Source: a virus
DNA length: 24,089 bases
Virus record (IMG/VR): IMGVR_UViG_3300027963_000332
Span: 1 to 24,089 of that record
Direction: 5' to 3' (one strand)
Part shown: positions 2,510 to 22,094 of the stretch, piece after piece
How the letters are laid out: each line of letters begins with the position of its first letter
Position numbering within the stretch: the first letter of the stretch is position 1
Notes under the pieces: generated by a model
What the model was told of the DNA's origin: nothing
What the model saw: the letters and a program-made list of their open reading frames with translations, nothing else
Database searches by the model: none
Program-made: the position numbers and the translations under genes

Positions 2510-3037
2510 TCACCAACCACCCTCGGGTACCGTCCAAGGCGACCATCCAGCAATCTTGTACAAAACAAGTCCTGCACGAAGATTGGTCAACGCATCCAGC
2601 AGAGGTTCTTGGGTGCAAGCGATCTTCGCCAAGCAAACAGCAGCCCATTTGTTTCGGCTGAGGTTGTAATTCACTCCGTTGATTTGAAGCAGACCAGAAT
2701 CGGACGCATGGTTTGAGCCATCGTGACCTGTCACTTCACAGTTCTTGTTCACGATGTCTCCCCCCTTTCGATAGGGACATGCCCCTGATTCACGTAGGAC
2801 AATCATGCCTAATTTGCGCCAAGTTTTTTTAGGCCATCCTGCTTGCTGTGCAAGTTGTGGCAACCAAGAGATGTCACCATGTTGGAACTTGATCGTCGGC
2901 TGGGATTCTTTGGGTATCACTTGGGTTCGGGTGACGGAAGGGCTGTGGGTGGGTTCGGGGGCTTGGACTGCGTGTGCTGTTCCGATGCCTATGGCGAGGG
3001 TGAGTGTGGTGACAATGGTTGCTGTGATGCGTCTCAT
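2510..3037 (-). CDS. Exported lysozyme-like / transglycosylase-like cell wall enzyme
   Basis: The 175-residue product begins with a signal peptide (MRRITATIVTTLTLAIGIGT, then AHA, cleavage near 23) and a Pro/Thr/Ser-rich linker (24-50). The domain from about 55 to 175 has Glu83 in VLRESGACPY, the SGLLQIN motif (114-120), Asn-rich loops and four Cys (87, 100, 135, 141) that fit disulfides in an exported protein. These are the marks of a lysozyme or lytic transglycosylase fold with Glu as acid. It could act as a second lysin, as a virion-associated wall-opener or in wall remodelling. I start at ATG 3037. The longer GTG start at 3079 would add 14 residues before the signal peptide. Ribosome-binding site is weak. 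Confidence 0.8.
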   Translation of the reverse strand: MRRITATIVTTLTLAIGIGTAHAVQAPEPTHSPSVTRTQVIPKESQPTIKFQHGDISWLPQLAQQAGWPKKTWRKLGMIVLRESGACPYRKGGDIVNKNCEVTGHDGSNHASDSGLLQINGVNYNLSRNKWAAVCLAKIACTQEPLLDALTNLRAGLVLYKIAGWSPWTVPEGGW

Positions 3038-3073
3038 GGTCTGTCCGATCTTCGCAGGTGAGTGGATATATGA

Positions 3074-3099
3074 CCTCACCCCAAGGAGGAAGGGTGAGG
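3074..3099 (-). repeat. Hairpin with CCTCCTT loop before the lysozyme-like gene
   Basis: CCTCACCC (3074-3081) pairs perfectly with GGGTGAGG (3092-3099). On the minus-strand RNA the 10-base loop is TTCCTCCTTG, the same sense as the 16S rRNA anti-Shine-Dalgarno. The hairpin lies about 37 bases before the lysozyme-like ATG. Confidence 0.55.
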
Positions 3100-5122: not shown

Positions 5123-5333
5123 TGTTGTCTCGATGTCGGGTGATTACCGATGGAGACATTTTGAATCCACGTTTCTTCAGGGCATGCACGATTTGCATGG
5201 GTCTGATCGTGGGGTCTGCCATTGCTTCGCGTAGGTCTTTGCCATCTTCGGCAGAGAGTTGAGCAACTATCTCATCGAGCTTTGATGTTCCTCTTAGGCT
5301 TTGCGACTTTATTTCCTGCAATAGTTTCGCCAT
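5109..5333 (-). CDS. Small helix-turn-helix-like DNA-binding protein
   Basis: The 74-residue product begins MAKLLQEIKSQS and contains LREAMADPTIRPMQIVHALK followed by KRGFKMSPSVITRHRDNN. The arrangement Asp-Pro-x-x-x-x-x-x-Ile-x-x-Ala-Leu-x-x-Arg-Gly-x-x-x-Ser-x-x-x-Ile-x-x-His-Arg is a pattern I associate with small actinophage proteins that have one helix-turn-helix and a recognition helix ending in Arg-His-Arg. The ATG at 5333 has an AGGGGA ribosome-binding site, and starts 62 bases inside the gene upstream. It overlaps the metallophosphoesterase start by 14 bases, so the two are likely expressed together. The target site is unknown. Confidence 0.68.
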   Translation of the reverse strand: MAKLLQEIKSQSLRGTSKLDEIVAQLSAEDGKDLREAMADPTIRPMQIVHALKKRGFKMSPSVITRHRDNNVTR

Positions 5334-5532
5334 TGGTAGTCCCCTTGAGATGCCAGTCGATGTGTGAATCCAACTTAGTACCAATGTTCGTCACATTTCC
5401 ACTAAGCACATCTAAAGCATCCACAACCTTTGCATGGTCTTGCGTGTTTTCGTTACGCATCACCACCATCAGCGTTGTCATAACCCCACCCACAGCCGTC
5501 ACCAACGCTGCGACAACAATGCCCCAATCCAT
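5272..5532 (-). CDS. Small membrane protein of the lysis region (DUF2746-like)
   Basis: The 86-residue product has one N-terminal membrane segment (about 4-25, IVVAALVTAVGGVMTTLMVV), then a charged helix with HAKVVDALDVL, HIDWHL (about 57-62) and a basic tail with NKVAKPKRNIKAR. The His-x-x-Trp-His and coiled helix pattern resembles small actinophage membrane proteins of the DUF2746 kind, often annotated near holins. A role in membrane disruption or as a spanin-like helper is inferred, not seen. Its TAA overlaps by one base with the endolysin end. Confidence 0.68.
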   Translation of the reverse strand: MDWGIVVAALVTAVGGVMTTLMVVMRNENTQDHAKVVDALDVLSGNVTNIGTKLDSHIDWHLKGTTNGETIAGNKVAKPKRNIKAR

Positions 5533-6101
5533 TATGCGGCAGGCTTCGGGTTGGCAGTCTCGTAGTCGAGGACGGCTTGGTTCGGTGTTGAATCAGTCCA
5601 ACGCAAGTGCCAAGGCTCGGCACCTGGCATGTCAACAACTTCGTGACTGAACCCGAAGCGTTGCTCATTCTCCAGCAACCATGCCAAGACTTTGCCTGAT
5701 GCGTTGGCGACATCGACTGCAATACCAAGCATGTGACGTGAACACTTCGCAGGATCATCCACAGGTGACGCAAGTACAGCCATGCCCTTCTTCAGATACC
5801 ACTTCTTGCCCTCATAGGTTCGGGTCTGTGCGCCCTCAATCGGCTCCACCTGGAACCGTTGCAAGAACCCAGCCTTCTGTGTAGCGATACTTCGATACGT
5901 GTCGGTATATTTCAGATTGATACCAGCCTCAGCCTTAGCAGCATGCCTCATCGCTTCCCAAGCCCGAGCAGCACAATGATGCAACTGCCCAACACCACCA
6001 CTGACAGGTCGCAGCATTGTCAGCGACACCTCAGAAGGCTTCTTGCCTTTTAGGTGGTCGCACCATTTGATAGGCACCACAGGCCAAGGCATCTTGGTCA
6101 T
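5532..6101 (-). CDS. Endolysin, D-alanyl-D-alanine carboxypeptidase type (M15/VanY family)
   Basis: The 189-residue product would cut peptide cross-links of the host cell wall at the end of infection. Zinc-peptidase motifs are clear: Ser121-Arg-His123-x6-Asp130 (CSRHMLGIAVDV), and Glu162-Pro-Trp-His165-Leu-Arg, giving ligands His123, Asp130 and His165 with catalytic Glu162. YTDTYRSIATQ (65-75) also fits the family. No signal peptide and no separate wall-binding domain are seen, so it depends on the holin-like proteins upstream. I start at ATG 6101, four bases after the holin stop. An upstream in-frame extension reads into the holin gene. Confidence 0.9.
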   Translation of the reverse strand: MTKMPWPVVPIKWCDHLKGKKPSEVSLTMLRPVSGGVGQLHHCAARAWEAMRHAAKAEAGINLKYTDTYRSIATQKAGFLQRFQVEPIEGAQTRTYEGKKWYLKKGMAVLASPVDDPAKCSRHMLGIAVDVANASGKVLAWLLENEQRFGFSHEVVDMPGAEPWHLRWTDSTPNQAVLDYETANPKPAA

Positions 6102-6105
6102 AGAG

Positions 6106-6339
6106 TTACTTCTTCTTTGCGCCGAATGCGTCGTTGATTTCATCCATTGTTAGGTTGCCATCAAGCGATGATTGTGCGAGCTTCTGTACAACGGTTGCAC
6201 AAGCTGCGAAACCAGCCAAAACAGCCGACTTCCAAATCTGTAGTTCAGGCGCAATAACAGCCGAACCACCAACGATTGCGAGTGCCGACGACAGGAACAC
6301 GGCCACGATACGACCTGCGACATCTTGGAACTTCTTCAT
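6106..6339 (-). CDS. Holin-like membrane protein
   Basis: The 77-residue product has two hydrophobic segments, about residues 10-30 (IVAVFLSSALAIVGGSAVI) and 38-54 (SAVLAGFAACATVVQKL), and a C-terminal DGNLTMDEINDAF (60-72) followed by basic residues. That Asp-Gly-x-Leu-Thr-x-Asp-Glu-Ile pattern resembles the tail of holins in actinophages. It sits right before the endolysin gene, where holins normally lie, and would form the membrane hole that lets the enzyme out. The start overlaps the stop of the gene above. Confidence 0.75.
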   Translation of the reverse strand: MKKFQDVAGRIVAVFLSSALAIVGGSAVIAPELQIWKSAVLAGFAACATVVQKLAQSSLDGNLTMDEINDAFGAKKK

Positions 6340-6506
6340 GAGTTATCTTCTTTCTTGGTGAGTGCGCCGATCAAGTGCAGAACTAATGCCCCAACAGTGA
6401 GCCAGATCACGACCCGTTGGATAGCCCCAGACAACGTGAGAATGGTGGTGACAGAAGCAGCGATTGTCCACAGCAACGCATGGAACTCACCCCACAACTT
6501 CATCAT
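6336..6506 (-). CDS. Small membrane protein, candidate holin
   Basis: This 56-residue ORF is short but well supported. ATG at 6506 overlaps the stop of the stalk protein (ATGA), and its own TGA overlaps the start of the next membrane protein. It has two hydrophobic stretches, about residues 10-26 (LLWTIAASVTTILTLS) and 32-49 (VVIWLTVGALVLHLIGAL), then a Lys-Lys-Glu-Asp tail, consistent with a two-segment holin or accessory lysis protein. Adjacent ATG codons at 6506 and 6503 are alternative starts. Tandem start codons resemble dual-start holins, but there is no sign of a regulatory pair here. Confidence 0.72.
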   Translation of the reverse strand: MMKLWGEFHALLWTIAASVTTILTLSGAIQRVVIWLTVGALVLHLIGALTKKEDNS

Positions 6507-7912
6507 CGATTCCTTCGGATTGGTGCAGGGGCTGACACCAAGAATACAGCACCCAAGGCAATCAGCGCACGTCGAGTTTTGATTGGCACAGTCTGATTCG
6601 TCATCACATAATCATCAGCGAAACCTTCAAACAGATTCAACACAGCCTCAAACGCTTTACGCACTTTGGTTGGTGCTTCTTGTACAGCAGCCACCAACTC
6701 GGTTGCCTGCTCGGTGGTCAACTCCTCGACTGCAACCTGCTCAAATACTTGTTCGGCTTCAGCATTGGTCAACACTTCCAGCACTGCCGGTTCGGATGCA
6801 ACGGAGACGGCTTGGTCAGGTGTGAGGTCGAAAGCGAGCAGCTCTGTGATGATGGCTTGAACTTGGGCTGGGGTTGCCTGGTCTATGTCGGCTAGGGCTT
6901 CGACTACGGCTTGATCGCTGATGGGTGGCAATGGTGCGTCAGGTTCAGGTGCGCTCGTCTGGGGGGCTTGTGGTGGTTCTGGGAGGGTGGTTTGGGGTGG
7001 GGGCAGGGTCGTTGTTGGAGGTGTCGTAGTGGTCGAGGGGTTTGTAGCAGGAACAGTTGTTGGTGCGACAGTCGTAGAAGTTGTTGTGGTTTTTAATGTT
7101 GTCTCCGTTGTTGTGGTTTCAGGGATGGTGGTATCTGGAATGGTGGTGGTTTCAGGCACCGTTGTTTCAGCGATTGTAGTAGTCGTAGTGGTGGTAGTCG
7201 TTTCAGGGATGGTCGTTTCAGGGATGGTCGTTTCAGGGATGGTCGTTTCAGGGATGGTCGTTTCAGGGATGGTCGTTTCAGGGATAGTTGTTTCAGGGAT
7301 AGTGGTAGTAGTCGTAGTGGTAGTCGTAGTGGTGGTAGTTGTTTCAGGGATGGTGGTAGTCGTAGTGGTAGTAGTTGTGGGTGCAACGAGCGTTGTGGTG
7401 AATGCACCGTCAGGAACCATCTCCCAGCCTTGGCCATCAATGTTCCACGCAAGAAGTATGCATGTTCCACCACCGTTTTCGTACATCCAAAGATCGAGTG
7501 GCTGACTGCCTGCAACAATGTCTATCTGCCCTGACTCCATCCAAGTGCAACCCTGATCAGACCAGTTGCCCCATTCATTGCCACCGATACTGATGGTGCC
7601 ACCGTCATCGGAAGCCAACCAAAACTCAATGGTTTGATGCTCTGGGATCGTGATGAACCCTGTCATGTGAACCATGAACAAGTCATCGGTGCAGTTCTGA
7701 TACGGCTCACCGTCGTAGCTTCGATTGATGTTGTTCTCAATCTCATAACCACAAATCGGATACACACTGTCAGACCTGACAGGAGGAATCTCGTCGATGG
7801 TGTAGTAGCTGGTGTTCAGCCCAGGAACAGGTTCAGCAGAAACAGGTGAAACAAACGACCAAGCTGTAGCCAACAACGCTGGCGCAACAATCAACCAACG
7901 AGAAGTACGCAC
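6503..7912 (-). CDS. Exported PA14-like protein with Thr-rich stalk and C-terminal membrane anchor
   Basis: The 469-residue product has an N-terminal signal peptide (basic start, hydrophobic 7-22, cleavage likely after VSPVSA at 21-26). Residues about 33-170 resemble a PA14 carbohydrate-binding domain: TSYYTIDEIPPV, an Ile-Glu-Phe-Trp-Leu-Ala-Ser-Asp-Asp-Gly-Gly block (95-105) and LWMYENGGGT. Four Cys (54, 74, 122, 151) could form two disulfides. Residues about 175-340 are a Thr/Pro-rich, low-charge linker with poly-Thr runs and seven tandem IPETT units. After a helical acidic domain (about 345-435) there is a hydrophobic segment (about 449-463) and a basic Arg-Arg-Asn-Arg end, giving a membrane-anchored, outward-facing protein. 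The start looks like GTG. It is followed immediately by holin-like genes. Confidence 0.75.
   Translation of the reverse strand: MRTSRWLIVAPALLATAWSFVSPVSAEPVPGLNTSYYTIDEIPPVRSDSVYPICGYEIENNINRSYDGEPYQNCTDDLFMVHMTGFITIPEHQTIEFWLASDDGGTISIGGNEWGNWSDQGCTWMESGQIDIVAGSQPLDLWMYENGGGTCILLAWNIDGQGWEMVPDGAFTTTLVAPTTTTTTTTTIPETTTTTTTTTTTTTTIPETTIPETTIPETTIPETTIPETTIPETTIPETTTTTTTTTIAETTVPETTTIPDTTIPETTTTETTLKTTTTSTTVAPTTVPATNPSTTTTPPTTTLPPPQTTLPEPPQAPQTSAPEPDAPLPPISDQAVVEALADIDQATPAQVQAIITELLAFDLTPDQAVSVASEPAVLEVLTNAEAEQVFEQVAVEELTTEQATELVAAVQEAPTKVRKAFEAVLNLFEGFADDYVMTNQTVPIKTRRALIALGAVFLVSAPAPIRRNR
7201..7305 (-). repeat. Seven tandem 15-bp repeats (IPETT)
   Basis: The unit tttcagggatggtcg on the + strand repeats at 7201, 7216, 7231, 7246, 7261, 7276 and 7291. 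The first five are identical and the last two vary slightly. Triplet-rich Thr codon runs flank it on both sides. It encodes tandem IPETT within the stalk. Such direct repeats are prone to slippage, so the stalk length likely varies. Confidence 0.95.
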
Positions 7913-7917
7913 ATTAT

Positions 7918-8118
7918 TTAGCCCAACAATAGTTTGGCTTCGTCAGCAGTTATTCCAAGTTTGCTGAGCACAACTTGTTTAGCAGCTTCTTCAATCAAAT
8001 AAATGGCATTGCGTTTTTCTAAAACTTTTTCATCAATCTCTTCATGAGTAAGTATTTCGTCGCCATCTTTCCAACCAATGTATTCCAAGGCAATACGGAG
8101 TTCATCACGGTTCATCAT
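7918..8118 (-). CDS. Small unknown phage protein
   Basis: This 66-residue acidic, helical product has two tandem start codons and overlaps the upstream stop by four bases (ATGA). It contains YIGWKDGDEILTHEEIDEKV and ends with a helix and an alanine/leucine-rich tail. I recognise no family. It is AT-rich, uses many A- or T-ending codons, and lies between a tail gene and the exported surface-type protein. Confidence 0.6.
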   Translation of the reverse strand: MMNRDELRIALEYIGWKDGDEILTHEEIDEKVLEKRNAIYLIEEAAKQVVLSKLGITADEAKLLLG

Positions 8119-8558
8119 GCTGGGCCGATGTCCTCTACCCAGAAGTCAAGTGGGCTGTAAATAGTTCCTGTACCTGCACCACATTTGGCGCGTATTTTTC
8201 TTGTCACTGTTCCTGCGCTTTCAGTAGAAATATAGGTTAAAAGTTGATAAGTGTAATTACCGCCACCAGGTACATAAAGGTTGATTTGACCTTTAATGTT
8301 GTTGCTTGAATCAGTAACATAAGTTTCTAGTGTGCCAGCTGCTGTTGAGTTGGAAGCGTAAGCAACAAAAGTGTATTTGTAGTAACGGTTGGCAACTGCT
8401 GTAAATGACAAAGATAATCCAATGTCTCCGACTACTGTTGTGAGTCCTCCGTTTGTTCCGAGTGTTGCAAAAGCCATAATGCCACGAGGAAGACGGTTCT
8501 GCTGCGCAGCAGTAAGAACTGCCCCAACTGTGAAATCGGTGTTCGGATTGATCGCCAT
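8115..8558 (-). CDS. Small tail-region virion protein
   Basis: The 147-residue product starts MAINPNTDFTVGAVLTAAQQ and continues NRLPRG, an opening I associate with small virion proteins found near the tail tip of actinophages. The rest is Ser/Thr/Tyr/Asn-rich with likely beta strands (YYKYTFVAYASN, YTYQLLTYIST) and ends with a Lys-Ile-Arg-Ala-Lys-Cys-Gly-Ala segment, as expected for a small beta-sandwich domain such as a fibre head or carbohydrate-binding piece. The ATG at 8558 has AGGAG upstream. A longer in-frame reading would overlap the minor tail gene and is not needed. The gene is more AT-rich than its neighbours. Confidence 0.72.
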   Translation of the reverse strand: MAINPNTDFTVGAVLTAAQQNRLPRGIMAFATLGTNGGLTTVVGDIGLSLSFTAVANRYYKYTFVAYASNSTAAGTLETYVTDSSNNIKGQINLYVPGGGNYTYQLLTYISTESAGTVTRKIRAKCGAGTGTIYSPLDFWVEDIGPA

Positions 8559-8565
8559 AATGCTC

Positions 8566-9813
8566 CTATTGTAGTCCGTAATCGGGGTTATCAAGGTTGG
8601 ATGTATCCAGCACAAAGGCTAGCCGAATCTGACCCAACCCAACCGTCACATCATGCCGAATGGGGTTGATGCTGTGGCGAATAGATTCGACAACCACGTT
8701 CTGTGAAACCGTAGAAGGCGAACCAACATTGAATGTCTTTGACACCGACACCAAATCACCAATCTCCAACCCAGCCACAACCTCCTGCTGTGCAGCCGTC
8801 AACGCATTCAACAACACAGTGAACCCCGAGAAGTTCACTGTCGGATTCTCAAACTTAGACACCAAAAAATTGGCTAACGCCTGATCAGCAACACCATCAT
8901 CAACCAACGGCAAATCAGTTAACGACACAGTTTTGATCCCATACTCACCTTGAGACGCAGTGCCATTAGCAACCGCAACATCAACCCCACCAGCAACCGA
9001 AACAGTCACACGATTCAACACCGTCTCAGCACCATACTCATTTGTCAAAGACTGAATAGGCAACCCAGCCGTACCACCAAAGTTTGCAACAGCAGAACCA
9101 GACGCAGCACCAACCCGAGCATCAAAGTTCAACAACCCAGAACGACCAACAAACAAACGCCCACCCTCAGCCACAGCCAGATCATTCAACGCCTGCAACA
9201 CATTCGTCCCATCGTCATACGGGAAATCACCACAAGTTGCCACACCTGTCTCAATGCTTCGCAGAGCTGTCGAGAACGAAACTTCGTTGAGATTGAGGAT
9301 GGCGTTCACCCGTGCCGAAGTTAATTGTTCAGATGGGGTGAACGCTTCAAATGTGGCTTGACCTAGTTGACCGAGCGCATCAGTTGACATGATCGTTGCT
9401 GTTGACAGGTTTGGATCGGCATAGTCAATGTTTAAGTCGTACACAAACCCTGAGAACATTGCTTGCGTACCGGCAGTTCCTCCGTACACCTCAAACTTGC
9501 GACGTGGTGCGATACCCACAGTGCCACCGGAATACCATGCCGAGGAAGTATTTAGTGGATCAAAGTATCGATCTGCTGCACGATCATCAGCAACAATCGT
9601 GCAACTCGATGAAGGAAACGAATCAAGTTGACTAGAACGACCACGATTGATATTGATGTTCGTCACATACTGTGTGATGTCCACAAAATCTGTGGAACCA
9701 TCCAACACAGCGAACCCATCCATCTCCGAAGTATCAAGCACAAAAGCGTTGGCAATAAACCCCACATCCAACAACACCTTGTACGTTGAACCCCACTTCG
9801 CCGCCTTAGCCAT
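8566..9813 (-). CDS. Minor tail protein (tail tip / distal tail component)
   Basis: The 415-residue product directly follows the tape measure, the normal place for tail tip proteins. It has an N-terminal DITQYVTNININRGRSSQLD (about 45-64) and FSGFVYDLNIDYADPNLSTA (about 119-138), then a region with ALNDLAVAEGGRLFVGRSGL. These match actinophage minor tail proteins of the Gp37/baseplate-like type in which the beginning of the protein resembles a distal tail domain. The motif Phe-Val-Leu-Asp-Thr-Ser-x-Met/Leu-Asp occurs at both ends (near residue 24 and near residue 402). The identity of the receptor-binding part is not clear, and no depolymerase or enzyme motif is visible. Confidence 0.82.
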   Translation of the reverse strand: MAKAAKWGSTYKVLLDVGFIANAFVLDTSEMDGFAVLDGSTDFVDITQYVTNININRGRSSQLDSFPSSSCTIVADDRAADRYFDPLNTSSAWYSGGTVGIAPRRKFEVYGGTAGTQAMFSGFVYDLNIDYADPNLSTATIMSTDALGQLGQATFEAFTPSEQLTSARVNAILNLNEVSFSTALRSIETGVATCGDFPYDDGTNVLQALNDLAVAEGGRLFVGRSGLLNFDARVGAASGSAVANFGGTAGLPIQSLTNEYGAETVLNRVTVSVAGGVDVAVANGTASQGEYGIKTVSLTDLPLVDDGVADQALANFLVSKFENPTVNFSGFTVLLNALTAAQQEVVAGLEIGDLVSVSKTFNVGSPSTVSQNVVVESIRHSINPIRHDVTVGLGQIRLAFVLDTSNLDNPDYGLQ

Positions 9814-15452: not shown

Positions 15453-16106
15453 CTAGTTGATTGACGCTGCTCCACGATACTGCGTACCTTCCAAACTGTA
15501 GTTCACAAATGGATTCAACGAATAGACATGACATCCATATATGTCAAACAATCGTTGCTTCATGTCTCTAAGGTTTGACTCGTACAATTCCCAAGGAGTA
15601 TCCCCTAGCCCATATCCTTTGATCCGATGCGCACCACCCAAAGTTCCACAATCGGCACCTACCAACACAATGAACTTCGCACCCATATACGCAGCCAAGT
15701 GCATCGCACCATGAATGCCAGATGACCCGATGACTAGCGAGTTGTCGAGAGTAGGCCAGTCCTTGCCGAATGGGTTGAACGATGCACCAGGACGACCAGT
15801 AGTGGTTGGGAACGTGACAACCTTTGGCATGAACCCTGGAAACTCTGCATCAGTGCCATGCGCACGTTCAGGGATAAACATAGCAATAGTCTCATCAAGT
15901 TTTGCTTCTGATATTTGGTCTTCTTCAAAGTGATAATGGCTGAACACGTAATACCTGCTCAAACCGAACACTGAACCACAGAAGTTCGTTGCCACACAAA
16001 TCTTGTCATCAAAGAAACTCGGTGCCAAATAGTTCAGTGTTGCACCAGACCCAAACACAAAGATCGTCTCACCATCATGCACACCTTTGAAATCTTCTAA
16101 TCCCAT
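15453..16106 (-). CDS. DUF115 / MptE-like (MAF flagellar-type) sugar-modification protein
   Basis: The 217-residue product resembles the DUF115 family, which includes 6-hydroxymethylpterin diphosphokinase MptE-like proteins and motility-associated factors tied to nonulosonic-acid glycosylation. Visible features are an N-terminal GETIFVFGSGATLNYLAPSF, the segment NSLVIGSSGIHGAMHLAAYM and GAKFIVLVGADCG, which are the Gly-rich nucleotide-binding and Asp-containing motifs of this group. I choose the ATG at 16106, preceded by AAGGGA and overlapping the upstream stop by 10 bases. A longer reading would need TTG at 16136. In phages and surface-glycan loci these proteins accompany glycosyltransferases, which fits here. 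The exact reaction is unknown: it could supply or transfer an unusual sugar. Confidence 0.75.
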   Translation of the reverse strand: MGLEDFKGVHDGETIFVFGSGATLNYLAPSFFDDKICVATNFCGSVFGLSRYYVFSHYHFEEDQISEAKLDETIAMFIPERAHGTDAEFPGFMPKVVTFPTTTGRPGASFNPFGKDWPTLDNSLVIGSSGIHGAMHLAAYMGAKFIVLVGADCGTLGGAHRIKGYGLGDTPWELYESNLRDMKQRLFDIYGCHVYSLNPFVNYSLEGTQYRGAASIN

Positions 16107-16762
16107 CCCAAATCCCTTCGACGCTTCAAATCCCAATGCCCAGCATCAGGAACACCTGACTCCCAACGCAACTGATGCAACTCCTGATTTGAATGGTAAC
16201 TGCGTTGATTCTTATCAGCCAACGAATTATCCGACCTAATAGTCGAAGAATTATCATGCACAATCTTTGCTTGAGAAACCTTCACCTCAACATTGATCCG
16301 TGACGCTCTTTGTTGGAAGTCGTTGTCCTCAAAATATGCAGGCACATAACATTCACTAAACAAGCCAACCCGTTCAACCACACCAGCACCCACCCAAGCA
16401 CACGACCAACCAGGCATGCCAGTCGTCAACGTAATTGCATCAGGTTCACAGTCCTTGTAGAACACTTCTAGTTGACCTGGTTTGAAGAACGCATCAGAGT
16501 TCAACAGAATCCAACCGTCAGCATGAGGGGTTGCTTTGATACCAAGATTCCATGAAGGTGCCACACCAAGATTGGTTGGCATACGCCACAGATACCAGTT
16601 CTGTACATATTGCCAAGGTGCAGACCAAGCCAACATGTCAGGGTCATACCCATCGCCGTTGTCAATGATGATGAGATTCTCAACAGGATAATCAATCGAG
16701 CGAATCGCCCGTTCCATCAAGTCGTATCGGTTTAGGACTGGGATGATGATGCACGGCACCAT
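16097..16762 (-). CDS. Small family-2-like glycosyltransferase (GT-A fold)
   Basis: The 221-residue product has the GT-A opening CIIIPVLNRYDLMERAIRSI (4-23), a nucleotide-binding IIIDNGDG (31-38), NLGVAPSWNLGI (64-75) and an Asp-containing metal-site motif LLNSDAFF (86-93) in the usual DxD place. A late acidic PAYFEDNDFQQRA (about 140-152) matches the acceptor-side ED motif of GT2 enzymes. It is shorter than many GT2 proteins but contains the core. The ATG follows an AAGGGAC ribosome-binding site inside the end of the upstream glycosyltransferase. No transmembrane segment is seen, so it should act in the cytosol. It probably works with its two neighbours on one glycan. Confidence 0.87.
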   Translation of the reverse strand: MVPCIIIPVLNRYDLMERAIRSIDYPVENLIIIDNGDGYDPDMLAWSAPWQYVQNWYLWRMPTNLGVAPSWNLGIKATPHADGWILLNSDAFFKPGQLEVFYKDCEPDAITLTTGMPGWSCAWVGAGVVERVGLFSECYVPAYFEDNDFQQRASRINVEVKVSQAKIVHDNSSTIRSDNSLADKNQRSYHSNQELHQLRWESGVPDAGHWDLKRRRDLGWD

Positions 16763-18045
16763 TCAGCAAGTCCCTTCATCACAGGCTTCCAATGTTCATC
16801 CCAGACACGATCAGCGTTATATGCCTGTGCGAAGTCCACAGCTACCTGATCAACGCCTCTAGGAGCCTCGTAGGCGTGTCTCAGGGCATCCACAATGGAA
16901 CCCACCTGAGGAGTACAGAACCAAGAACGCTGTGCATTATCCCAAAACGGTTGAACCTCCACAGCCCACCCAGACCCAACCAACTCCGGCTGTGCAGTGA
17001 AGTCCGAAACAATGACCCTGGTGCCACATGCCTGAGCCTCGATCACAGCCAACCCAAACCCTTCACCCATAGACGCAGACAACAACACATCAGCAGCTGC
17101 ATACATTGAAGCCAACGCCTGCTGAGGGAAACCAGTCCGATATGCGTACTGGTCAACAATCTTGTATTGATCCTCACGAATCCCACAAGCATGCAACAGA
17201 TGAATCAAATTGACACCACCCATCGCACCATCCTTCTCGGTGTGCAGATACAGCATTGCGTCAGGTTTATCTTGTGCGAAGATACCGAACGCCAACAAGT
17301 TCTCTGCAAACGATTTGCGTGACGGACTAGAACCCTTGTTCGCTGCGTTCATCATCACCACAAACTTGTCATCAGGAACATCACCCATCAACTGCCGACC
17401 TGTGAATGTCTTGTCACCGTTCACAAACTTTGCGTCAGGATTGAACACTGACTCGATGCCATGAGGAACATAGAAACATTCCACATCAGCATCATTCAAC
17501 ATCTGCTCACCGAACCTAGACATAGCAATCGGTTTTACATTCGGACGAGCGCACCATTCGACCACATCGGCTGGACAAGGTGCATGATCAATAGGAACCC
17601 AAGACGCAATGTTCTTCACCATGTCCAATGACTTTGACTTCAACGGCCACACATCAAACAAAGTCATCAACAACGAAGGCAACTTTGGATTCCCATTTGC
17701 CCAATCCATCCCATGAGCAACCATCACATCATCTGAATATGGTGCCATCCCACGTGGATACATTTTGATGCCATTCCAATTTGACGAAACTCCTTCGAGT
17801 CCGTACATGGCATGGATCGCTACTTCGTGACCTTCTTTGACGAGCCTTGTGACGGCTTGCGCTGTTTGCGTACCGTAGCCGGTGGGGACGAAGGGAGCGT
17901 TGGAATACCAGAGGATTCGTAACGGGTCAACATTGGTAGGTCTGCCACTTCTGGCAAGTGCGCTATCCCTCGATGCAACAACAGCTCGGCTTCTAGGGGT
18001 GGTAGTTCGACCATTGTGTTTCGGATTATTACCAGCATTCTTCAC
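16732..18045 (-). CDS. Glycosyltransferase, family 4 (GT-B fold)
   Basis: The 437-residue product would transfer a sugar from an activated nucleotide donor to an unknown acceptor in the cytoplasm. The N-terminal Rossmann-like half begins near residue 42 with RILWYSNAPFVPTGYGTQT, a typical GT-B opening. The C-terminal half has the family signature MGEGFGLAVIEAQACGTRVI (about 326-345), including the EX7E pair Glu328 and Glu336. The first 40 residues are Arg/Thr/Ser-rich and probably disordered. The start appears to be GTG, with AAGGAG upstream. Its stop lies 31 bases inside the next glycosyltransferase gene, so the two are coupled. It lies between the capsid terminator and the head-tail connector. 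Donor, acceptor and linkage cannot be read from the sequence; virion glycosylation or host envelope modification are both possible. Confidence 0.9.
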   Translation of the reverse strand: MKNAGNNPKHNGRTTTPRSRAVVASRDSALARSGRPTNVDPLRILWYSNAPFVPTGYGTQTAQAVTRLVKEGHEVAIHAMYGLEGVSSNWNGIKMYPRGMAPYSDDVMVAHGMDWANGNPKLPSLLMTLFDVWPLKSKSLDMVKNIASWVPIDHAPCPADVVEWCARPNVKPIAMSRFGEQMLNDADVECFYVPHGIESVFNPDAKFVNGDKTFTGRQLMGDVPDDKFVVMMNAANKGSSPSRKSFAENLLAFGIFAQDKPDAMLYLHTEKDGAMGGVNLIHLLHACGIREDQYKIVDQYAYRTGFPQQALASMYAAADVLLSASMGEGFGLAVIEAQACGTRVIVSDFTAQPELVGSGWAVEVQPFWDNAQRSWFCTPQVGSIVDALRHAYEAPRGVDQVAVDFAQAYNADRVWDEHWKPVMKGLAEWCRASSSQS

Positions 18046-19470: not shown

Positions 19471-21339
19471 TTAGGCGATGGTCTTCAATAAATCAAGGTG
19501 CTTGGCCATGACACCCAAACGAGCAGGTGCAGCATCTTGCACAGGTTCAAGTTTGGCGACAGTTTCACGCAACAACATCGCATGATCCTGCGACAAAGTT
19601 TGACCAGATTCAAGGTTCGTGATCGCAGCTGCGAGTTGATCTGCGTCAATACCTGTGCGAGTAGCAAGCGCATCAAGCGAACGAACTGCTGCTGAGGTGG
19701 CTGCATACGCTGGGAACCCTGTGACAACGCTGACTTCATACAGTTTGATTTGACGAAGTTCACGGGATTGACCATCATCAGACCACATATCTCCACCAGA
19801 TGGAACTGTGAAACCAAACGACATCGAGTTCACATCGCCACGTTGCATCAACACCGACAGGTCACGACCAATCGAAGTATCAGGCAGGGATGCGTCAACG
19901 AATAAGCCTTTGGAATCTTCAGATAGTCGCAGTGTTTTAGCACGGGTTGTAGCAAGGAGCATGCTTGAGTCATGGTTCATGTACATGCGCACATTGTTCT
20001 TTGATTTGAGTGAGCGTGAGAATGCGCCTGGTGCGATCCGTTCGATGAACGGCAACGGTTCTGAAGGTGAATTGAACACAGCTGCATAACCTGAGAACGA
20101 CATGCCGTTGCCTTGTGGATCGGCACGAAGTTCAAACTCGTTTGATGTGATGCGACGTGTTTCTACAGTTGAGTCCATGTCGCCAATGCTAGTACCAAAT
20201 GAGCCAAGCGATCTAGATGACTTAGGATGACCCTTCGGCAACAAATCATTGTCGCCAACATATTTTGCATTCTCAGGGCTGCCAACTCTTAACAAACGCA
20301 AGAACGCATTCACTCTTGCATAAGCCCACTGATCACGGGTGACACCTGGACGATGCGAAGTTGAATATGCTCCAGCACCTCGACGGAACACTGTGCGCAA
20401 CATACCAACAGTCGCACGTTTGGAAGGGTTATCACCAACCTGATCATTGTGTTCTTTGGCTTTGTTTTCTAAACCTGTCTCAATCGCAGCAGACAACTCA
20501 ATGGTCTTTGACCCAGCAGGAGCCTTCGCAGACCCAGCAGGATTATTCTCTGAACCTTTGATCTGATCTTTAGGTGGGGCAGGAGCATCAGCCCGTTCAG
20601 CTTTGATCGCTTCAGCCTTAGACATGAACCAGTTCATCGCAGGTTCAGGGTCGAGTGGGTTGATGCCCCACAGATAGAACGCCACAGCACCGGCACCAGG
20701 GAACTCTTTGTCATCAGGGTCAGAGTTCTTTGGCGCATCCAAGTCCACAAGATGTCTGGCACCCCAAGCGTTCGTGCGAATCACCTTGTCTTCAGTGACC
20801 TCACCTCTGGCCATGTCCCGTGCCTCACGCACAGTGCGATCAACCAAACCGTCACCAGCCAAACCTTGGCCGTAGTAGTCCAAACCTTTACGAGCAGCCG
20901 AACGGATATAGACAGGAACATCCAAGGAAACTTGGCGCACCTCATCTTCCATTACGTCTTCCTCCATGTCATCCAAAACTTCTTCCTCTTCGTGTTCTTC
21001 GGATTCCCAAGCGTTGCAATACCAACCACCATTCACATACGCATCCCACTTCATGCAATATGCTTTCAAATCTCTGCCATCTTCTTGAATCATGTCTTCG
21101 TTGTAGTAATGGCAGTTCCCACATGCTCGACCTTCAGGAACATCAGCAGCCAACGCTGGACGATAATTATCTGGCAACGCCCGTTCACCACCAGGTTCCA
21201 TGTCTTCAGCAATCGACACAGCAACCATCTGATCTATCGCATCCTGTTTTGTGGTGTGGCAACCAATAACTTCACCATCCTCTTTGACGGTTGCCCAACC
21301 TGAACAATCAGGTGATTTGTCTGTAATGAAATAAGGCAT
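19471..21339 (-). CDS. Multi-domain head protein ending in a prohead protease (capsid maturation protease)
   Basis: This 622-residue protein joins several modules. Residues 1-45 are a phage-specific segment with CHTTKQDAIDQM. Residues 73-108 hold Cys73-x2-Cys76, Cys95 and Cys108 followed by Ala-Trp, a spacing like a small high-potential iron-sulfur or metal-binding motif. A very acidic Glu/Asp stretch follows (about 112-134). Residues 145-250 and 285-375 match two phage-associated helical regions (ARDMARGEVTEDKV and RPGVTRDQWAYARVNAF). Residues 395-545 are the S78-type HK97 prohead protease domain, with FSGYAAVFN, a His456 in MNHD, the Ser motif NSMSFGF (504-510) and Glu535. The protease would trim the scaffold or delta domain from the capsid protein encoded next. 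Typical prohead proteases are about 200 residues, so the fusion is large. About 130 bases with hairpins separate it from the capsid gene. Confidence 0.88.
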   Translation of the reverse strand: MPYFITDKSPDCSGWATVKEDGEVIGCHTTKQDAIDQMVAVSIAEDMEPGGERALPDNYRPALAADVPEGRACGNCHYYNEDMIQEDGRDLKAYCMKWDAYVNGGWYCNAWESEEHEEEEVLDDMEEDVMEDEVRQVSLDVPVYIRSAARKGLDYYGQGLAGDGLVDRTVREARDMARGEVTEDKVIRTNAWGARHLVDLDAPKNSDPDDKEFPGAGAVAFYLWGINPLDPEPAMNWFMSKAEAIKAERADAPAPPKDQIKGSENNPAGSAKAPAGSKTIELSAAIETGLENKAKEHNDQVGDNPSKRATVGMLRTVFRRGAGAYSTSHRPGVTRDQWAYARVNAFLRLLRVGSPENAKYVGDNDLLPKGHPKSSRSLGSFGTSIGDMDSTVETRRITSNEFELRADPQGNGMSFSGYAAVFNSPSEPLPFIERIAPGAFSRSLKSKNNVRMYMNHDSSMLLATTRAKTLRLSEDSKGLFVDASLPDTSIGRDLSVLMQRGDVNSMSFGFTVPSGGDMWSDDGQSRELRQIKLYEVSVVTGFPAYAATSAAVRSLDALATRTGIDADQLAAAITNLESGQTLSQDHAMLLRETVAKLEPVQDAAPARLGVMAKHLDLLKTIA

Positions 21340-22094
21340 TAGACCAACAACAATACTTCAGCATCGTCATCCAAAGTGGAGAACGTGACCGAACCCAACG
21401 CACCCACATCAGCACCACCAAGCCGTGCCACAGCCACAACCGACACCAACACAGGTCGTCGAGGCTTGGGAATCTCAATGATGATCTGTTCTGGTAGTTC
21501 TTGTTTCTTGATCGGTGAGGCAGGTTGCTTCCACCAGCGTGACCCCGAAGGAGGTATGACAGGTGGTTCAGGAGGATTTATGTCAGCTGTGGCTGAACCA
21601 ACCACATTGCCAAGATCGGCTGAAGCAATCGCAGTTTTATCGACCTTCGTTGTCGCAGAAGCATCAAGTCCACCCAAACTTGCTGACGCAATAACATCTT
21701 TAGAAACCTTCGTTGTCGCAGAAGCATCAAGCCCACCAAGGTCAGCGTTCGCTGACACACTTTTCTTCGCTTTGGCTTGAGCCGAAGCATCCAGCCCACC
21801 CAAGTCTGCGCTCGCAACAGCAGGCACCACCACTGTTGCTGTGGCTGTAGCACTTGTCCCACCAAGCGACGAAGCACCAGTGGCAGAATGTATGACTGTT
21901 GCTGATGCTGTGGAACTGGTACCACCAAGCGATGAAGCACCAGTGGCAAAATGTTTGACTGTGGCTGATGCTGTAGCACTTGTGCCACCAAGCGATGAAG
22001 CACCAGTGGCATTCATCGGGAATGGTGAACCATCCAATCCAACTGTTGCATCATCCAGTTGAGATGTGTTTAGGGTGAACCTACTGAACGCCAT
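21339..22094 (-). CDS. Virion-associated repeat protein with seven 21-residue repeats
   Basis: I do not recognise a named family for this 251-residue protein. After an N-terminal Phe-x-Leu-Asn-Thr-Ser-x-Leu-Asp motif (about 6-14) it has seven units of exactly 21 residues, with the Leu-Gly-Gly core at residues 35, 56, 77, 98, 119, 140 and a Leu-Gly-Asn variant at 161. The first three units are of the GASSLGGTSATASATV type and the next ones of the ADLGGLDASA type. A Pro-rich, basic segment follows (about 173-215), then a degenerate Leu-Gly-Gly-Ala-Asp element near 225. The composition (Ala, Ser, Thr, Gly) and regular period suggest a repetitive beta structure such as a fibre or decoration protein. 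It lies between the portal-proximal structural gene and the protease, so a head-associated role is inferred. The downstream gene starts where this one stops (shared base 21339). Confidence 0.75.
   Translation of the reverse strand: MAFSRFTLNTSQLDDATVGLDGSPFPMNATGASSLGGTSATASATVKHFATGASSLGGTSSTASATVIHSATGASSLGGTSATATATVVVPAVASADLGGLDASAQAKAKKSVSANADLGGLDASATTKVSKDVIASASLGGLDASATTKVDKTAIASADLGNVVGSATADINPPEPPVIPPSGSRWWKQPASPIKKQELPEQIIIEIPKPRRPVLVSVVAVARLGGADVGALGSVTFSTLDDDAEVLLLV
21838..22020 (-). repeat. Near-identical 63-bp DNA tandem repeats inside the repeat protein gene
   Basis: The three N-terminal 21-residue repeats are also strongly conserved as DNA. The block ccaccaagcgaygaagcacc begins at 21859, 21922 and 21985, exactly 63 bases apart. 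A second, more diverged pair with the same 63-base step begins at 21646 and 21709 (ttcgttgtcgcagaagcatc). Near identity at the DNA level implies recent unit duplication or homogenisation, so copy number probably varies between related phages. Confidence 0.9.

Follow-up and report, generated by a model that had tools for sequence, protein, structure and literature searches.

The window, meaning the whole 24,089-nucleotide stretch of viral DNA analysed here, probably encodes a calcium-dependent lectin that is made with the lysis proteins and displayed on the infected cell through a two-part anchor of host type, a reading to which we assign a probability of roughly 0.55 on the strength of sequence comparisons. 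Phages alter host surfaces, usually by lipoproteins, by proteins that mask receptors or by sugar-modifying enzymes. If the reading is right, a widespread group of freshwater phages would encode both a lectin for display and the membrane partner that goes with it, a pair assembled from host-type components and coupled to the lysis genes.

A conserved gene between tail and lysis genes

The lectin gene is a 469-aa open reading frame on the minus strand, and its limits agree exactly with the original prediction for this DNA (Table 1). An IMG/VR scan found relatives encoded in 88 stretches, from which 80 loci (L002-L081) were retained; these belong to freshwater actinobacterial viruses, and complete relatives span 446-579 aa when measured from the upstream stop codon. 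Across 61 distinct sequences the four cysteines, head, stalk and tail are all kept, and dN/dS has a median of 0.17 in the head, 0.16 in the C-terminal helical domain (C-domain) and 0.49 in the stalk. Because relatives occur in so many viral stretches and these ratios are low in the head and C-domain, we do not regard the frame as a product of chance; by the same ratios the head and C-domain are under purifying selection, and the stalk mainly retains its length and composition. The predicted Sec signal peptide (RTSRWLIVAPALLATAWSFVSPVSA/EP), which the original prediction had also placed at the N-terminus, has a conserved basic n-region and hydrophobic core, and 44/61 sequences show A-x-A close to the cleavage point.

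Table 1. Coordinates of the lectin gene, its parts and its neighbours in the window
Feature	Position	Strand	Evidence
Complete gene for the PA14-head surface protein (469 aa, GTG start at 7912)	6503..7912	-	ORF; relatives in 88 viral stretches
Predicted signal peptide, residues 1-26	7835..7912	-	hydropathy, A-x-A motif, conservation
PA14 head, residues 28-172, four invariant Cys	7397..7831	-	Pfam, alignment, AlphaFold model, structural matches
D102-D103, counterpart of the DcisD calcium motif	7604..7609	-	invariant 61/61; role in relatives from PMC8092209
E145-N-G-G-G149 loop, counterpart of MpPA14 calcium/sugar loop 11	7466..7480	-	E145 and G148 invariant 61/61
Stalk, residues 173-332, Thr/Pro/Glu-rich; TTIPE-type 15-bp DNA repeats at ~7200-7300	6917..7396	-	composition, repeats, dN/dS
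Helical C-domain, residues 333-446, with homologues in surface proteins of actinobacterial chromosomes	6575..6916	-	alignment, chromosomal matches, model
Tail, residues 447-469 (RR - 17 hydrophobic residues - RRNR); candidate segment for docking or membrane insertion	6506..6574	-	conservation, hydropathy
56-aa two-helix TLSG membrane hairpin, proposed membrane anchor	6336..6506	-	overlaps lectin stop by ATGA; conservation, fusions
77-aa holin-like membrane protein	6106..6339	-	PHROG holin, weak, E 0.004; start overlaps hairpin stop (ATGA); synteny
M15/VanY-type endolysin	5532..6143	-	Pfam PF02557, E 1e-11
Small membrane protein coupled to lysin gene	5272..5532	-	neighbourhood, overlap
66-aa protein immediately upstream of lectin, poorly conserved	7918..8118	-	neighbourhood
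Variable 166-aa protein, weak CBM6/DUF7298 similarity, candidate host-range protein	8115..8615	-	profile match, loci comparison

The location between tail and lysis genes was confirmed and is conserved across loci. The full order, seen wholly or in part across the 80 loci, is tape measure, tail protein, the variable 166-aa protein, the 66-aa protein, lectin, holin-like protein, M15 endolysin and small membrane protein; a lysin was detected in 57 loci and a holin-like protein in 56, many of the others being short contigs. Overlaps continue along the cassette, from the end of the holin-like gene into the endolysin frame and from the end of the lysin gene into the gene for the small membrane protein. 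Two PHROG labels in this cassette appear misleading: the 77-aa membrane protein is called 'nuclease' (phrog_26427) and the M15 lysin 'tape measure' (phrog_16823). The 166-aa protein shows 38-67% identity where it is present and is far more variable among relatives than its neighbours; it is the better candidate for host range or receptor binding.

Several features elsewhere in the window, all on the minus strand, may be recorded here. A WhiB-family regulator (1885-2253) speaks for an actinobacterial host. A 189-aa protein (2510-3079) with a signal-peptide-like N-terminus has the look of a lysozyme or transglycosylase, matches no family significantly and is possibly a second, exported wall enzyme. 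Directly downstream of the capsid gene lie MptE-like, GT2 and GT4 glycosyltransferase genes (15453-18045), whose products might add sugars to proteins of the virion or to the stalk of the lectin, and a protein of ATGASSLGGTSATAT-type repeats (21339-22094) adjoins the head protease gene. Scans for promoters and terminators returned no more sites than in shuffled DNA, and integrase PF00589 was not found in ten records of relatives, mostly fragments.

A PA14 head with a likely calcium-dependent sugar site

The original prediction of a PA14-like head with four cysteines was borne out by both sequence and structural comparison. Pfam PF07691 matches lectin residues 57-118 at 24.5 bits, barely over its gathering cut-off of 24, and a profile search with the head matched an RsgI3 chain at E 8e-12. 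AlphaFold, run on a 14-row alignment (A2), gave a PA14 beta-sandwich (pLDDT 84, pTM 0.81), this being the best of five models whose mean pLDDT ranged from 84 down to 31. The solved structures closest to this model are themselves PA14 domains, those of RsgI3-type anti-sigma factors (Z 17), followed by MpPA14, a Marinomonas lectin solved in complex with sugars (Z 15), the PA14 domain of an RTX adhesin (Z 15) and yeast adhesins (Z 12-13). The cysteines, at residues 54, 74, 122 and 151, are invariant in 61/61 sequences.

MpPA14 binds sugar via calcium, through Asp110-Asp111 (the DcisD motif) together with Gln156, Gly157 and Asp159 of a loop (PMC8092209), and MhPA14 uses a comparable set of residues (PMC6650083). 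Since D102, D103, E145 and G148 of the lectin align with these calcium- and sugar-holding residues and are invariant throughout the family, the head likely contains a calcium-dependent sugar site.

In the apparent host family discussed below, the PA14 profile matched 4/200 genomes, with weaker scores. One of these genomes (G401) encodes, at chromosomal locus L167, a secreted protein whose Cys-rich PA14 domain is like the phage head. The head, too, may derive from the host.

A mucin-like stalk, a helical domain and a marginal tail

The stalk, which the original prediction put at about 165 residues, proved to be ~160 residues long with 46% Thr; in relatives it measures 135-240 residues (median 162) with 19-50% Thr. 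By length and Thr content it qualifies as the long Thr/Ser/Pro-rich stretch of a mucin-like protein. The C-domain that follows was correctly foreseen as helical, in that the predicted model contains eight helices (pLDDT 78, pTM 0.63); the row for Actinomycetia phage DSL-LC01 was omitted from the alignment used in one structure prediction. A Foldseek search of the PDB with this model gave nothing at E <=0.001 (best E 0.2), a sequence search for solved structures reached only E 0.28, and neither the C-domain nor the hairpin has a significant match in Pfam or NCBIfam. Weak Pfam scores of related C-domains to MgtE_N, GatB and Glycos_trans_3N were judged to reflect generic helical similarity.

The protein had also been predicted to end in a transmembrane segment and a short basic tail. 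The hydrophobic stretch and the RRNR after it are there, and the RR-hydrophobic-RR pattern recurs in 61/61 sequences, but with 15-17 residues the segment is marginal for spanning a membrane: the apparent dG, a rough position-independent sum used alongside hydropathy, is +2.8 for the window and +4 to +6 for two relatives. The LPxTG motif of sortase substrates was not found before the hydrophobic segment in the tails listed, the conserved motif being YV...RR, and the Por-secretion C-terminal sorting domain (T9SS) is absent from the lectin, for which PA14 is the sole Pfam family at E up to 1. Sortase or T9SS anchoring was dropped as an explanation, with neither the motif nor the family match present.

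A second, overlapping gene as the probable anchor

The gene that follows the lectin and precedes the holin-like protein is a 56-aa open reading frame encoding a two-helix hairpin (MMKLWGEFHALLWTIAASVTTILTLSGAIQRVVIWLTVGALVLHLIGALTKKEDNS), whose start shares ATGA with the lectin stop and whose stop shares ATGA with the start of the holin-like gene. The hairpin follows the lectin gene, overlapping it or at most ~20 bases away, in 63/63 relatives that have enough downstream DNA. Its median dN/dS is 0.055, and the four residues TLSG are invariant in an alignment of 13 rows. No Pfam family was found for it; in PHROGs it matches phrog_29041 (55 positions), with E 3e-13 for one relative and 0.0017 for the window's own hairpin. 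Hits to Pseudomonas phage PaBG were disregarded (E 0.9).

The association extends well beyond the lectin phages. We compared a profile built from standalone hairpins of PA14 phages only with 77 further C-domain loci, which had been picked by C-domain and not by hairpin; it matched 74/77, and the remaining three spell TLSG at the corresponding place, so that a hairpin is fused or adjacent to the C-domain in 77/77. As fused forms exist, and the fusion of two proteins suggests joint function, we take the hairpin to be a partner of the C-domain protein and probably the membrane anchor of the lectin.

In the alternative view the tail alone anchors the protein, as the original prediction had it, and the hairpin would be a small lysis protein that comes next by coincidence and has no link to the lectin. 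The unbroken conservation of the tail pattern and the placement of the hairpin before the holin-like gene would suit it; against it stand the marginal hydrophobic segment, the homologous hairpins that hosts and other phages have fused to proteins of this type, and the co-occurrence of C-domain and hairpin in host genomes, and we consider it unlikely. The hairpin is accordingly the better anchor candidate, and it had been overlooked earlier, as had the host-type display module that phages and chromosomes share.

A proposed display module shared with actinobacterial chromosomes

A C-domain alignment (A1) matched two contigs of freshwater actinobacterial MAGs (L083 and L084), where the genes around the matching proteins are metabolic. 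Chromosomal proteins of this kind comprise a signal peptide, an RCC1 and/or DUF4082 head, a Thr-rich stalk, the C-domain and the TLSG hairpin, the last either fused or encoded by the next open reading frame (L100-L102, L093-L095). The C-domain of the window's lectin, with its YV...RR motif, is homologous to that of these hairpin-bearing surface proteins. It was found in 14/200 genomes of one actinobacterial family and in 2/396 sampled phylum-wide, both already among the family matches; that this family is Acidimicrobiia/acIV is only a guess. The hairpin was detected in 18 of the 200 family genomes, including all 14 with the C-domain (hypergeometric P ~3e-18, kinship ignored). Among the four extra genomes, which have no C-domain match, G343 has a hairpin like the split host form and two are marginal. 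The fourth, G472, places a TLSG hairpin (locus L185) beside a Thr-rich secreted protein that ends in hydrophobic-RR and apparently lacks the helical C-domain. These sequence relationships identify the C-domain and hairpin as a display module common to actinobacterial chromosomes and phages, and, because nearly all of its bacterial occurrences in our samples fall in one family, the module may aid host assignment of uncultured actinophages.

The same evidence bears on whether the lectin is instead a virion protein, that is, a receptor-binding tail component carrying PA14. Such a reading could appeal to the gene's place directly after the tail genes and to the PA14 and related domains in predicted phage proteins of uncultured Caudovirales, but the conserved signal peptide, the membrane hairpin adjoining or overlapping the gene in every relative that could be scored, and the use of the same C-domain by chromosomal surface proteins disfavour a virion or tail-fibre role to the point that we think it very improbable. 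The protein is, as originally proposed, probably outward-facing and no part of the virion.

For a search of further phages, single host and DSL-LC01 C-domains served as queries, because a host-first alignment (A5) proved too diverse to scan viral records with. They recovered further loci, including contigs of ~200 kb, whose C-domain proteins have signal-peptide-like N-termini and a fused or adjacent hairpin. A Terminase_6N domain was present in 6/18 tested records, five of them 190-216 kb. PF07691 heads sit on the C-domain proteins of L153 (33.7 bits) and L163 (27.8 bits); the PA14 head of L141 and the SUEL-like head of L130 fall below cut-off. Large surface proteins with C-domain and hairpin were noted on ~200 kb contigs at L130 1949-4426 (SUEL-like), L153 2342-4651 (PA14) and L107 1049-5002 (unassigned head). 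An endolysin adjoins the module in L153, none was seen among the checked neighbours in L163 and L148, and in other phages the module adjoins glycosyltransferases or further non-lysis genes. A tblastn search of 50,697 phage records returned DSL-LC01 as the sole match, by C-domain and by hairpin alike.

In a C-domain tree the host rows are scattered among phage rows, with four changes, at least three of which are forced by well-supported branches. The tree is compatible with repeated exchange between hosts and phages, its details being unsure because several branches are long. We judge the chances about even that these loci represent an undescribed two-component display system, in which a C-domain with a YV...RR docking tail and a TLSG hairpin, fused or encoded by the next gene, is native to one freshwater actinobacterial family and was acquired by phages, in two size classes or more (~40 kb and ~200 kb), to coat infected cells with lectins; in the smaller phages it would be tied to the lysis operon, so that coating precedes the burst.

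Possible roles at the surface of the infected cell

We envisage that Sec would export the lectin and that its C-domain and short hydrophobic tail would dock onto the separately made two-helix hairpin as anchor; in bacteria and ~200 kb phages the hairpin is often fused to the C-domain protein. The ~160-residue stalk, up to roughly 50 nm if fully extended, would take the head through the wall, and its ligand would be a conserved sugar borne either by the envelope of the producing cell or by neighbours. Given that ATGA overlaps lead on to the holin-like gene and that the lysin gene comes immediately after, synthesis would take place alongside holin and endolysin, as lysis is prepared; a lysis-linked display is at odds, however, with the several larger phages in which the module lies away from lysis genes.

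The most likely benefit, held tentatively, is that the lectin occupies surface sugars and so keeps superinfecting phages or released progeny off the dying cell and its debris. Blocking of adsorption to dying cells and debris fits the proposed timing. Late-only expression would nevertheless lessen its use against early superinfection, and a conserved head beside a varying candidate host-range protein speaks against the masking of a fast-changing receptor.

Ranked next, and possible rather than probable, is adhesion or aggregation, whereby the lectin would stick infected cells to neighbours, particles or polymers, and progeny would be freed near new hosts. The lectin structures nearest to the head are adhesin tips (MpPA14, the RTX adhesin, Flo/Epa), the surface module is of host type, and the conservation of the head under purifying selection suggests one common ligand; expression next to the lysis genes, on the other hand, would leave little time to adhere.

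A direct part in lysis seems unlikely. Head, stalk and hairpin might help to break the envelope or to localise the endolysin, and would then be what accessory lysis proteins are elsewhere, in a Gram-positive setting; the ATGA coupling to the holin-like gene, the conserved position in the lysis cassette and the adjacent endolysin in L153 are all points in its favour. Bacteria, however, employ this C-domain and hairpin in genes on their chromosomes that are distant from any lysis gene, and other phages keep the module by glycosyltransferases or other non-lysis genes. Some role other than these three we rate lower still.

Comparison with known systems

The RsgI3-type PA14 dyad (6qe7, 6qdi) is the top match to the head by both profile and structure, yet it comprises two PA14 domains in a membrane sensor, whereas the lectin carries a single PA14 domain on a stalk and has no signalling domain. 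MpPA14, MhPA14 and the yeast Flo/Epa proteins share with it the fold (Z 12-15), the DD calcium motif, the acidic-x-G-G loop and the plan of a stalked sugar-binding tip; they differ in sequence (identity ~18% or less), the lectin has four invariant cysteines, and the window encodes a small two-part phage protein in place of giant RTX adhesins or GPI-anchored proteins.

The chromosomal Thr-stalk proteins (L083, L084, L087, L093-L102) have the signal peptide, Thr-/Pro-rich stalk, C-domain with YV...RR and TLSG hairpin in common with the lectin, but bear RCC1/DUF4082 heads or none, have the hairpin fused or separate, and lie away from phage genes. Among phages, WJZ48438 of Actinomycetia phage DSL-LC01 and the proteins of L107, L108, L130, L148 and L153 likewise combine C-domain and hairpin with Thr-rich stretches, and several have lectin-type heads; these proteins are longer, their hairpins are mostly fused, and among those checked only L153 has an adjacent endolysin. 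In the available part of the DSL-LC01 description (PMC10611076), WJZ48438 passes without comment.

The C-domain/hairpin anchoring module appears undescribed in the libraries searched. phrog_29041 is a family with no assigned function, whereas the window's hairpin is tied to a surface protein; given this, and the lack of significant Pfam or NCBIfam matches for C-domain and hairpin, the present analysis offers a testable role both for phrog_29041 and for an unnamed bacterial surface-anchoring module.

Our search of the literature on phage PA14 surface proteins, mucin-like proteins and superinfection lectins found nothing directly relevant except a report on Cryophage (PMC7468147), and on its account the original statement that no such phage system had been described was too strong. 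Cryophage encodes PA14, endoglucanase and GH39 proteins with T9SS type A sorting domains, and superinfection exclusion or inter-strain competition has already been proposed for its PA14 protein (PMC7468147). As far as the available text of that report goes, Cryophage resembles the window's phage in joining a PA14 protein to a host-type C-terminal surface or secretion module; it differs in using the T9SS of Bacteroidota where the window's phage would use Sec and a membrane hairpin, in having highly variable cargos where the lectin head is conserved, and in that the available text reports no coupling to lysis genes of the kind seen here (PMC7468147). A displayed phage PA14 protein thus has a direct conceptual precedent in Cryophage, judged from that same text (PMC7468147), from which the present lectin differs in host phylum, anchor, gene arrangement and conservation of the head.
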